Origin: Frigoribacterium sp. PvP032
Lineage (GTDB): Bacteria; Actinomycetota; Actinomycetes; Actinomycetales; Microbacteriaceae
DNA: 64,000 nt
Reading direction: 5' to 3'
NCBI RefSeq assembly: GCF_017833035.1
Contig: NZ_JAFIBM010000001.1
Coordinates: forward strand, 2,997,762 to 3,061,761
This document shows, piece after piece, positions 7,501 through 50,330 of this stretch. Within the stretch, counting starts at the first letter, position 1; each line of letters starts with the position of its first letter. The translations under genes were made by a program, and so were the position numbers. A model generated the notes under the pieces. That model had not been told where the DNA came from. It was given only the letters and a program-made list of their open reading frames with translations, and searched no databases.

Positions 7501-8037
7501 GTCGCGCTCGAGCAGCGCCCGGGTGCCCGCCAGGCGGTGCTCGGCCTCGGCGTCGCCGAGCACGGCCTCGCCGAGCAGGTTGAGGTTGAGGCGCGTGCCC
7601 TCCGCCTTGATGTTGCTGATGGCCGCGCCGAGCTTCGCGGGCCGGGCGTCGGCGATGAGGTGGCCGACCATGCCGCGCAGCACGCGTCGGGCGACGGGCA
7701 CGACGACGCCGGGCAGCACGGGGGCGACGACGCCGCCGACCCGGACGGCGCCGCGCATGTACCAGGGCAGGAAGGCGGGGACCTGCGACGCGAGGCGCGA
7801 CAGGTTGCGGGCTGCCACGCTGAGGTCCTCGGGGCGGACGACCCGGTCGACGAACCCGATGGTGAAGGCGAGGCCCGACTCGTCCTTGAGCACCTGCGCC
7901 AGCAGGTGGGCCGAGTCGGTGCTGGGGGCCGACGAGGCCTCGTGCGCCCACCGGCGGGCCAGGGCGACGGCGTCGTCGCCGATCGACTCGGGGAGAGCAG
8001 CAGCTGCCGGCCTGGCCGGCTGGTCGATGGTGGTCAT
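4549..8037 (-). CDS. putA: PutA: bifunctional proline dehydrogenase / glutamate-semialdehyde dehydrogenase
   Basis: 1162 residues. The N-terminal half (about 40-460) is the FAD-dependent proline dehydrogenase barrel (YVSIKVSSI, VKGANLAME, FEMLLGMAEG). Residues about 510-950 are the aldehyde dehydrogenase with catalytic Cys756 in HAGQKCSAAS and the E of LAETSGKNAI. About 200 further residues form the C-terminal domain seen in longer PutAs. There is no N-terminal ribbon-helix-helix DNA-binding domain, so it should not repress its own gene. The ATG at 8037 was chosen because a TATCGT box lies exactly 6 nt upstream; the open frame continues 55 codons further but without family similarity. It converts proline to glutamate in two steps. 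Confidence 0.93.
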   Translation of the reverse strand: MTTIDQPARPAAAALPESIGDDAVALARRWAHEASSAPSTDSAHLLAQVLKDESGLAFTIGFVDRVVRPEDLSVAARNLSRLASQVPAFLPWYMRGAVRVGGVVAPVLPGVVVPVARRVLRGMVGHLIADARPAKLGAAISNIKAEGTRLNLNLLGEAVLGDAEAEHRLAGTRALLERDDVDYVSIKVSSIVSQLSMWAFDETVERVVEKLTPLYELAARSREPKFINLDMEEYRDLDLTIAVFTRLLDQPQLQGLEAGIVLQTYLPDALGALQGLTEWATRRVDAGGASVKVRVVKGANLAMETVDAVVHEWPLATYDTKKASDTNYKRVLAWALTPERTRAVKIGVAGHNLFDIAFAHLLAEARGVGDRVEFEMLLGMAEGQAELVKADVGGLLLYTPVVHPREFDVAISYLIRRLEENASSENFMSAVFELASNEAMFEREKGRFLASLADVDVEAPAPHRVQSRLDGAQALRPREAGSGFDNEPDTDPAKADNRTWGREIQRRSVDSVLGVDLIEQARVTDASVLDEIVAGAVAAQPAWAARGGAGRAEVLRAAAVTLAARRADLMEVAASETGKTVAEGDVEVSEAIDFANWYAHLAEELDVVDGADFVPERLTLVTPPWNFPVAIPAGSTLAALAAGSSVVVKPAGQAKRCGAVMVEALWEAGVPRDVLRLVDVDEGDLGRHLVSHPSVDRVILTGAFETAALFTSWRTDLPLLAETSGKNAIIVTPSADLDLAAADVIKSAFGHAGQKCSAASLVILVGSVGSSERFRRQLVDAASTMRVGYPSEPTTQMGPIIEPASGKLERALTTLGAGESWLVEPRQLDDSGRLWSPGVRAGVAAGSEFHLTEYFGPVLGVMTAATLDEAIALQNATDYGLTAGLHTLDPAELTTWLDGVEAGNLYVNRGITGAVVRRQPFGGWKKSSVGAGAKAGGPNYLVHLGSWQPTTLAGAASQEALPAKAVAAALRAATPSLGADADLVAAAVATDEHFWQAEFGVARDVSQLGLERDLLRYRPLAVTVRAAEGASLADVVRVLLAGVRSGSPFTASVATALPEAFVSSLGLGVGAIRVESDDAWHERVRSGGLRTERVRLVTGADDAGAASSALADALGGDPAVAVFAAAVTPTGRLELLPFLREQAVSITAHRFGNPDPWSDAVI

Positions 8038-10244: not shown

Positions 10245-10887
10245 CCGCGGCCACCTCGTTGCGCACGGCCTCGTCGAGCTGCTCGGTCGGCACCGTCACG
10301 ACCGTGCCGATCACGAGCCGCATCAGGTCGGCGACCTGAACCTCGTCGCGCCGGTACAGCCACTGCAGCTGCAGGCCGTCCTGCACGGCCAGCACGACGC
10401 GGGCCGCCGACTCGGCGGTGAAGCCGTCCCGCAGCCAGCCGCGCGCCTCCGCGACGGCGAGGTACGCCGAGGTCGACCCGATGATGCGGTCGTAGTGGTC
10501 GGCGTAGTAGTCGTGGGCCGGGTGATCGGTCGACGTGGCCTCGGCCGACGCCGTGATGAACAGCGAGATGACGGCGGGCACGTCGACGTTGTACTCGGCG
10601 AGCGCGACGAGCTCGGCGAGGCGCATGCCGCCCTCGTCGTCGAAGTGCTGCCGGAGGCGCTCGTCACGTCGACGGAGGACGGCCATGAGTAGCTCGTCCT
10701 TGGTCGCGAAGTAGTGCATCAACGACTGGTGCGAGACGCCGCAGCTGCGGGCGATCTCGCGCAGCGAGGCACCGTGGAAGCCGACCTTGCCGAAGACGGG
10801 CAGGGCCGCCTCGAGGATCGCCTCGCGCTTGGCGACGCCCTTGCGGTAGCGGCCTGGCGGGGCGGCGGGCTCGTCGAGTGCGGACAT
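10231..10887 (-). CDS. TetR-family transcriptional repressor
   Basis: 218 residues. The N-terminal HTH is clear (REAILEAALPVFGKVGFHG, then SLREIARSCGVSHQSLMHYF at about residues 38-57); the remainder is a helical ligand-binding domain. The ATG at 10887 was preferred over an upstream ATG (10941) because TAGGCT lies 7 nt before it (10900-10895, minus strand). It is divergent from the MFS exporter at 10964 and convergent with the Drr-type exporter, so either could be its target; the shared promoter region favours the MFS gene. Confidence 0.88.
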   Translation of the reverse strand: MSALDEPAAPPGRYRKGVAKREAILEAALPVFGKVGFHGASLREIARSCGVSHQSLMHYFATKDELLMAVLRRRDERLRQHFDDEGGMRLAELVALAEYNVDVPAVISLFITASAEATSTDHPAHDYYADHYDRIIGSTSAYLAVAEARGWLRDGFTAESAARVVLAVQDGLQLQWLYRRDEVQVADLMRLVIGTVVTVPTEQLDEAVRNEVAAATSR

Positions 10888-48568: not shown

Positions 48569-48597
48569 GCAGCTCCCCTCAGGGCGGCACGCTCAGC

Positions 48598-49218
48598 TCA
48601 GGAGGCGGCCCCGGGTCGTGAGACGCGGGCGAGCAGTGCCGCGGCGAGCTCGCGGGCGGCCTCGACCGGCCGGGGGAACGTCGCCATCCCGAGCGTGACC
48701 AGGGCGCCCTCGTGCAGCAGCATCAGCTGCCGCGCGAGGGCGCCTTCGTCGTTGCCTCCGAGCCCCGCCTCCGCGAGGAGGCCGCCGAGCAGCTCGAGCA
48801 TCCAGCGTTTCTGCCGCGTGAGCTCGGGCAGCACCGGCCCGCCGTCGTCCGGGCCGCCGACCTCGGCGCGCGCGTTGATGACGCCGCAGCCCTTCGGCGA
48901 GTTGTCGGCCGACCAGGTGAGCGTCGCGTCGAAGACCGCGAGCACCCGCTCGGGGCCGGGCTCGGGCGTGCGCGCCAGCTCGGCGGCGAGGTGGGCGCGC
49001 CACCTCGCGTCGCGGTGCTGCAGGTACGAGACGACCAGCGCCTCCTTCGAGCCGAAGCGGTCGTACAGGGTCTTCTTCGTGACGCCGGCCGCCTCGGCGA
49101 TCGTGTCGACGCCGACGGCGTGCACGCCGCGGTCGTAGAAGAGGTCGGAGGCGGCGTCGAGGAGGCGGCGCGCACCGGGCGTGAGGAGGGGCAGCTCGGG
49201 TGCGGTGAGATCGACCAT
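48598..49218 (-). CDS. TetR-family repressor
   Basis: 206 residues. HTH: ARRLLDAASDLFYDRGVHAVGV then TIAEAAGVTKKTLYDRFGSKEAL (about residues 18-60); the C-terminal ligand domain includes the SPKGCGVINARAEVGG segment typical of the TetR/AcrR group that regulates transporters. TATAGT is 7 nt before the ATG 49218. It should bind the palindrome at 49225-49246 and control both itself and the divergent EamA transporter. Confidence 0.92.
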   Translation of the reverse strand: MVDLTAPELPLLTPGARRLLDAASDLFYDRGVHAVGVDTIAEAAGVTKKTLYDRFGSKEALVVSYLQHRDARWRAHLAAELARTPEPGPERVLAVFDATLTWSADNSPKGCGVINARAEVGGPDDGGPVLPELTRQKRWMLELLGGLLAEAGLGGNDEGALARQLMLLHEGALVTLGMATFPRPVEAARELAAALLARVSRPGAAS

Positions 49219-49224
49219 GCACTC

Positions 49225-49246
49225 GACTATACCTATCTGTATAGTC
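49225..49246. promoter_or_regulatory. Symmetric operator and divergent leaderless promoters of TetR and EamA genes
   Basis: Inverted repeat GACTATAC (49225-49232), 6-nt centre, GTATAGTC (49239-49246). The same bases supply both -10 boxes (TATAGT, minus 49231-49226 and plus 49240-49245), each 7 nt from the ATG it serves. A TetR dimer here would occlude both promoters. Confidence 0.8.
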
Positions 49247-49252
49247 ACGAGC

Positions 49253-50242
49253 ATGACTAAACCGATCGGTGTACTCGATGAGCAGCGCGCAGACAGGCCG
49301 GAGCGCGCAGACGGGCCGGGCCGGACGAGACGTGCGTCCGCCGTCCTCACGGTGCTCGCCGCAGCCGCCTTCGTCCTCGCGTGGAGCTCGGGCTTCACCA
49401 TCGCGGCCGTCGCGACCGTCGACGCGCCCGCGACGACGCTGCTGCTCTGGCGGTTCCTGCCGCTGGCGGCGCTGCTCGTCGTGGTCGCCGTCGCCAGGGG
49501 CCGGCTGCGCGGCGTGCCCGTCGTCGAGCTCCGACACCAGGCCGTGATCGGCCTGCTCGCGCAGTTCGGCTACGTGGTGTTCGTCTACGCGGCCGTCGGC
49601 GCCGGGGTGGCGACCGGCAGCACGGCCCTGGTCGACGCGGTGCAGCCTCTCGTCGTGGCCACCCTCGTCGGCCCGCTGCTCGGGCTGCGGGTGCGGGGCG
49701 CGCAGTGGGCGGGGCTCGGCGTCGGGGCCGCCGGCGTCGTGCTCGTCGTCGGCTCGCAGCTCGGCGGGTCCGACGCACCGGCCTGGGCGTGGGCGCTCCC
49801 GGCGCTGGCCATGGCCAGCCTGATCGCCGGCACGCTCGTCGAGCGACGCGGCGGGGCGGAGCTGCCCGTGCTGACGACGCTGACCGTGCACGTGAGCGTG
49901 ACGGCCGGGGCGCTCGTGGTGCTCGCGGCGGCGACCGGGACGCTCGTGCCGCCTCCGTCGCCGTCGTTCTGGGCCGCGACCGTGCTGTCGGCACTGGTGC
50001 CGACCCTCGCCGCGTACGGCCTGTACTGGTGGCTGCTGCGCCGGCTGGGCGTGACCGCCCTGAACGCGCTGCTCTTCCTGGTCGCGCCGACCACCGCGGC
50101 CTCCGGCGCGTTGCTCCTCGGCGAGCCGCTCACGGCGTGGACCCTCGCGGGCTTCGTGCTCAGCGGAGCCGGTTCAGCCCTCGTGCTGACGAGCGGACGA
50201 AGGAGGCGCGCACCGGCCGGCGAGGCCCTCGCGACCCCCTGA
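49253..50242 (+). CDS. EamA/DMT-superfamily transporter
   Basis: 329 residues, about ten membrane segments in two EamA repeats ([22 protein letters not shown] and [21 protein letters not shown]). The ATG 49253 is 7 nt from TATAGT. Probable metabolite or drug exporter controlled by the divergent TetR protein. An AGGAGGCGC sequence lies near the 3' end. Confidence 0.9.
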
Positions 50243-50330
50243 GGCGCCCCTGCCGCTCGCCTGCCGGGGCCTGTTCCGCGCGTCCGCGACGCCTCCGCCG
50301 CGCCTCCTCCACAGCCGCGGGGCCTGGCCT

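Follow-up and report, generated by a model that had tools for sequence, protein, structure and literature searches.

Probable control of a divergent tetR/eamA pair through two matching DNA sites: one holds both predicted promoters and the other forms the first codons of the exporter

Introduction

In Tn10-type tet systems, which encode a TetA-type exporter, both operators lie between the divergent genes, outside coding sequence. Repressor bound at tetO1 shuts off both genes, whereas at tetO2 it impedes tetA and no more than down-regulates tetR (as described in PMC3037858). The tetR mRNA of Tn1721 is reported to be leaderless (PMC3017554, PMC4681348). Several other described systems share elements with the locus studied here. 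The AcuR operon of Rhodobacter sphaeroides has a TetR-family repressor and a transcript found to be leaderless by 5′ RACE; its operator, TAATAGAC-n6-GTCTATTA, overlaps the promoter and has 8-nt arms and a 6-nt spacer, the same dimensions as the palindrome described below (PMC3017554). C.Kpn2I has a regulator site in a coding region, overlapping divergent promoters and an elongation roadblock, according to PMC6237814, and nreAXY of Mesorhizobium, an efflux operon, is described as leaderless, its promoter containing a dyad operator (PMC12724321). Leaderless messages are documented in Streptomyces coelicolor, where 264 mapped mRNAs have leaders shorter than 10 nt (PMC4681348). For mycobacteria, translation is reported for any mRNA whose first codon is ATG or GTG, and only these two codons are reported to start leaderless translation (PMC4633059).

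Here we describe a tetR/eamA pair in a 64-kb window, the whole stretch of DNA analysed, which has a GC content of about 72% and comes from a 3.33 Mb genome assembled as a single contig, the closest named relatives of which belong to Frigoribacterium (Microbacteriaceae). Judged from its sequence, the locus resembles tetR/tetA of Tn10 and Tn1721 in having a divergent TetR repressor and exporter and two candidate operators, one of them over both predicted promoters. The pair is probably switched through two matching DNA sites, O1, containing both predicted promoters, and O2, which would form the first codons of the exporter.

Results

The tetR and eamA genes

The TetR-family repressor gene occupies 48598–49218 on the minus strand (206 amino acids, predicted leaderless ATG at 49218), and the gene for the EamA drug/metabolite transporter occupies 49253–50242 on the plus strand (329 amino acids, predicted leaderless ATG at 49253). 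The two genes are divergent and separated by 34 bp. The repressor matches Pfam TetR_N (PF00440) with an E-value of 1.1e-16 and 60.7 bits (cut-off 24), and the transporter matches PF00892 over two stretches with an E-value of 1.9e-16 and 61 bits (cut-off 28.2). No NCBIfam equivalog matched the TetR protein at its cut-off. The AlphaFold model of TetR has a mean pLDDT of 83, and its nearest solved chain is SCO4454 (3g7r; Z 18.2 over 181 residues), with NemR at Z 16.9 and QacR at 16.6. As these nearest chains are either uncharacterised or tied in Z, we name no inducer. Cys111, within a KGC motif, is invariant, a feature that we take to be reminiscent of redox-sensing members of the family. A second, distant TetR-family stretch (L005) is present in the window at 10636–10821 on the minus strand, with 32% identity over residues 18–79.

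Both predicted −10 boxes lie in one palindrome

The intergenic region contains the palindrome GACTATAC-CTATCT-GTATAGTC at 49225–49246 (putative operator O1; 16-bp core 49228–49243). Its 8-nt arms are perfect and separated by a 6-nt spacer, and wider arms of 17 nt are 82% complementary. Along the plus strand the order is CAT (49216–49218), 7 nt, ACTATA (49226–49231), 8 nt, TATAGT (49240–49245), 7 nt, ATG (49253–49255). The candidate −10 box of eamA is therefore TATAGT at 49240–49245 on the plus strand, and that of tetR is TATAGT at 49226–49231 on the minus strand, each 7 nt from the ATG that it would serve. The preliminary description had proposed such an arrangement, an inverted repeat holding both −10 boxes between a TetR repressor and an EamA transporter, and it is confirmed to the base, as are the two 7-nt distances on opposite strands (starts at 49218 minus and 49253 plus).

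A sigma-70 consensus scan of the locus found no promoter. The best matches to TTGACA at −35 were 3/6 and 2/6, and only the −10 boxes are recognisable. The O1 core covers −25 to −10 relative to both predicted starts. A distance of 35 bp separates these start points; with the predicted promoters overlapping back to back, there would hardly be room for polymerase on both at once.

Both starts are best read as leaderless, judging from 75 relatives with the same layout (see below). Among these, TANNNT is present in the EamA-side arm of O1 in 71 and in the TetR-side arm in 69, and in 63 both arms contain TANNNT with both starts 6–8 nt away. A Shine–Dalgarno-like tetramer precedes the EamA start in none of the 75. 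The same comparison supports the earlier proposal of two leaderless starts. Within the window, TANNNT was found 6–8 nt before an early ATG or GTG in 11 of 40 coding frames, compared with 1 of 457 internal ATG or GTG codons; this census used codon-composition filters, covered part of the window's genes, and does not have tetR or eamA among its matches. The leaderless starts predicted by this census are at 8037, 10964, 13329, 14221, 14778, 16044, 16919, 19970, 38750, 41071 and 60787. Leaderless starts as such are common in this window and no surprise, so the layout is not unusual in that respect.

A second copy of the site lies inside the eamA reading frame

A search for the palindrome with up to three mismatches gave two matches in the 64-kb window, compared with 0.01 expected from shuffled sequences. 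The second, at 49255–49276, is inside the eamA open reading frame, and the single-operator picture was rejected as incomplete. We designate this site O2 (putative operator, 49254–49278; 16-bp core 49258–49273). It lies within codons 2–7 of eamA, the core beginning on the wobble base of codon 2. The gene starts here with ATG ACT AAA CCG ATC GGT GTA CTC, encoding MTKPIGVL, and the relatives encode peptides like MSKQIGIP. The 25-nt stretches around O1 and O2 are 80% identical when one is reversed. With a 16-bp weight matrix trained on sites from 28 of the relatives' loci, O1 scored 26.5 bits and O2 25.7; no other position in the 64-kb window exceeded 2.8. A search of the whole genome for a wider regulon gave no other good site, and one doubtful match with two mismatches at 554589.

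The centres of the two cores are 30 bp apart, about the same distance as between the tet operator centres of Tn10. Counted from the predicted eamA start the O2 core covers +6 to +21; counted from that of tetR it covers −40 to −55. The conservation described below points to O1 and O2 as candidate sites for TetR.

Downstream of O2, two tandem 18-nt copies at 49284–49319 lengthen the EamA N-terminus before the first membrane helix, and in one relative (L009) a different repeat array occupies the same place. This linker looks free to vary.

Distribution of the two-site layout

Relatives were collected from three samples. TetR relatives were found in 148 of 299 genomes of the family at E ≤ 1e-20 and in 37 of 297 genomes of the order at E ≤ 1e-40, the 30 best places being kept as loci in each case; from named genomes, scanned once, the top 80 of 487 confirmed stretches were taken. 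Removal of identical promoter regions left 121 nonredundant TetR loci. Loci were picked by TetR similarity and sites by the weight matrix; the counts that follow are of species, and related ones are not independent events.

Two sites and a divergent EamA were present at 93 of the 121 loci. In 75 of these the EamA start lies between the sites, with an in-frame ATG or GTG 6–10 nt after the forward −10 box and always 5 or 8 nt before O2; L112, where the EamA start meets an in-frame stop, was left out of this group. Two further loci (L011 and L029) have ATA or ATT at the expected start, and 16, in Streptomyces, Micromonospora and Amycolatopsis, have two or three sites with the EamA start downstream of the last. 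The remaining loci comprise one with EamA apart from tetR, 11 with EamA and one or degraded sites, and 16 with no recognised EamA.

Spacing within the 75 loci is narrow. The forward −10 box is 7 nt from the EamA start in 53, 6 in 13, 8 in 6, 9 in 1 and 10 in 2, and the start is 5 nt from the O2 core in 67, 8 nt in 6 and both in 2, which have two ATGs. The centres of O1 and O2 are separated by 30 bp in 48 loci, 29 in 12, 33 in 7, 31 in 6 and 32 in 2. On the other side, the TetR start is 6 or 7 nt from its −10 box in 67 and 9 nt in 1, and 7 have no start at 5–9 nt. The four loci with an EamA-side hexamer other than TANNNT are the f15 genomes L128 and L130–L132. These four, the 7 without a TetR start in that range, the replaced EamA start of L011 and L029 and the lack of a recognisable −35 box speak against the proposed switch.

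In a quick, unrooted tree of TetR, the 16 loci whose O2 precedes the EamA start make up one side of a branch with an SH-aLRT of 92, which is below the program's support mark. The layout with O2 in the reading frame occurs on both sides of that branch, in the f15 genomes and in a large group of Microbacteriaceae, Cellulomonadaceae and Micrococcaceae. The Amycolatopsis taiwanensis locus (L120) has three putative operators in a row before EamA, with centres 25 bp apart. Four more distant TetR relatives (L133, L135, L138 and L142) have two putative operators of the form TTCAC-GATC-GTATA, and there the gene facing tetR, whose start looks by eye like that of a quinone oxidoreductase, has a leader and a Shine–Dalgarno-like sequence.

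Loss, movement and exceptions

At the split locus (L021, genome G165), EamA lies about 700 bp from tetR and has its own TAAACAGATCTGTATAGT-7 nt-ATG-O2 with 30-bp spacing. The tetR gene keeps a single site, in which the EamA-side hexamer is TATAGG. At four Cellulomonas and Cellulosimicrobium loci EamA was not found by tblastn within 2.0–2.5-kb flanks. One site is left at each and O2 is gone; the TetR-side −10 box is TATACT in three and TATATC in L093, and the other arm reads TCTA. At these EamA-less loci (L085, L087, L088 and L093) tetR faces another gene, preceded by GAATGTACAGTCACTCACATG and itself leaderless-looking. In L070 a frameshift, or else an assembly error, splits EamA over two frames, and O2, at 10.5 bits, is degraded. 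L114 has EamA with a leaderless-looking start and one site only, O2 being missing, which counts against O2 being indispensable. In L011 and L029, O1 and O2 are intact and the expected EamA ATG is replaced. Since leaderless translation in mycobacteria is reported to start only at ATG or GTG (PMC4633059), EamA at these loci may start 13 codons later or be non-functional; alternatively, translation may begin on a non-standard leaderless codon.

At E ≤ 1e-50, EamA was found in 29 of 299 genomes of the family (12 of 85 genera), every one of them among the 30 genomes that have a close TetR. In the thirtieth (G034), tetR is in two pieces and there is no EamA. In two genomes of the same genus the flanks of the pair are nearly contiguous, separated by 137 bp in G110 and 105 bp in G298, giving an approximate extent of 48569–50305 for the cassette; in G035 the gap is 711 bp. 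In G298 the contig with these flanks also carries the tetR–eamA pair, some 82 kb from them. From these comparisons, the two genes look to have been passed on, lost and relocated together.

O2 is conserved as DNA

The codons in O2 were compared across the 75 same-layout loci. None of 450 cells varied at the six wobble positions, and 79 of 750 varied at the ten non-wobble positions. Over 304 aligned codon columns elsewhere in the same genes, the wobble position varied in 37%, and in 33% in the 87 columns with conserved residues. Freedom from wobble variation in O2, against 37% elsewhere, indicates that O2 is conserved as DNA. Conservation of the EamA N-terminus as protein was rejected as an explanation, because frozen wobble positions with variable non-wobble positions are the reverse of protein selection. 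The codons used are AGT, AAA, GGT and ATA, and elsewhere ATA makes up 1.2%, GGT 9% and AGT 4% of their synonymous sets. A or T occupies the third position in 353 of 532 O2 codons compared with 61.5 expected (76 loci, L112 included). In the usual layout, residue changes in O2 (K/I/R/T at codon 3 and I/V/L at codon 7) for the most part affect two symmetric, tolerant positions of the operator, namely the third base counted from each end of the core.

The two sites differ in their outer bases. The outer T of the hexamer, which is outside the 16-bp core, is kept at O1 on both sides (74/75 and 72/75). The full TANNNT, retained in the O1 arms as given above, is found in the O2 arms in 15/75 and 6/75. 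O1 thus appears to be an operator plus two −10 boxes, and O2 an operator alone.

Alternative readings of O2

O1 alone overlaps both −10 boxes, so one operator might block both promoters with O2 conserved for the EamA N-terminal peptide. MSKQIGIP/L is indeed well conserved, and L114 retains EamA with one site. We nevertheless consider this very improbable, as the contrast between wobble and non-wobble positions runs opposite to protein selection, the O2 codons are rare ones, and the motif lies upstream of the EamA start in the 16 Streptomyces, Micromonospora and Amycolatopsis loci. O2 could instead be an element of the mRNA or, like an A/U-rich start region, enhance translation of the leaderless message. 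It is among the first bases of the predicted transcript, and A/T-rich early codons aid initiation in many bacteria. To this reading we give the smallest chance of all: O2 scores like O1 in the same matrix and has dyad symmetry, it is absent from tetR and untranslated in Streptomyces, and mycobacterial leaderless translation is described as having no downstream sequence preference (PMC4633059).

Somewhat less improbable, and still unlikely, is an EamA start at a GTG about 13 codons further on, which would place O2 in a 5′ untranslated leader as in Streptomyces. L011 and L029, which have an in-frame GTG further on and neither ATG nor GTG at the expected place, fit such a start. However, 75 of the 77 loci of this layout have ATG or GTG at 6–10 nt, always in the EamA frame. 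The two O2 positions, +5 and +8, differ by one whole codon, and L022 and L017 have no in-frame ATG or GTG between the first ATG and the first membrane helix.

Discussion

Two sites at nearly constant positions, conserved as DNA, accompany two genes that are inherited together. The reading that we consider likely is a Tn10-like two-operator switch of a TetR repressor and an exporter, with two overlapping leaderless promoters and the second operator inside the transporter reading frame. We infer that TetR binds both sites, that the mRNA 5′ ends lie at the predicted starts, that O1 and O2 have distinct roles and that a ligand is involved. A TetR dimer on O1 would cover both −10 boxes and shut off tetR and eamA. 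A second dimer on O2, 30 bp away and almost on the same helical face, would tighten repression of eamA from +6 to +21, by steric block or as a roadblock, with little effect on tetR. A ligand, probably a substrate exported by EamA, would release TetR. This division of labour, as described for Tn10, is suggested by the placing of O1 at the same distance from both starts and of O2 just inside one transcription unit and well upstream of the other. The preliminary description had one dimer blocking both genes: a dimer on O1 could do so, and what it missed is O2, which makes two operators and probably acts on eamA only.

With eamA predicted to be leaderless and its start codon between the operators, O2 doubles as eamA codons 2–7, and the operator would set the N-terminus of the transporter. 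On balance we favour the further view, with more reserve, that across a wide range of actinobacteria an operator has turned into coding sequence, the same DNA serving as repressor site, start of the transcript and codons for the first residues, and that the MSKQIGIP peptide owes its existence solely to the need for TetR to bind at this place. The locus would show how far a bacterial switch may be compressed without mRNA leaders, the 34 bp between two start codons holding two predicted promoters and one putative operator, with a second operator that is coding. It offers a clean test case of DNA selection overriding protein selection, with wobble positions frozen and residue-changing positions free, and a warning that N-terminal conservation may stem from regulatory DNA. 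As a repressor/exporter part that is small and portable, it may also be of use in high-GC actinobacteria. If the reading is right, operator-born N-termini are to be expected in other leaderless genes, and with them a type of annotation trap, regulatory DNA being mistaken for conserved protein sequence.

The described systems each differ from this locus. AcuR, in what PMC3017554 reports of it, is a single operon in one direction with one operator, no divergent partner and nothing inside an open reading frame. C.Kpn2I is a restriction–modification controller with the site in the regulator's own gene (as given in PMC6237814). In the account of nreAXY the repressor is of the CsoR/RcnR family and acts on one operator, between −35 and −10, of a single-direction operon (PMC12724321). 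In searches of the open-access literature we recognised no paper dealing with this pair of TetR and EamA, or with an operator placed within the reading frame of a leaderless transporter. The ingredients are known, and their combination, two predicted leaderless promoters in one palindrome with an operator that codes for the transporter start, did not turn up in that literature and looks new. In contrast to Tn10 and Tn1721, the transporter here is also predicted to be leaderless and both −10 boxes lie within one palindrome. The exporter is EamA in place of a TetA-type protein, and O2 is in coding sequence, in EamA codons 2–7. The switch would work like tet but, given this position of O2, is not filed as a Tn10-type member.
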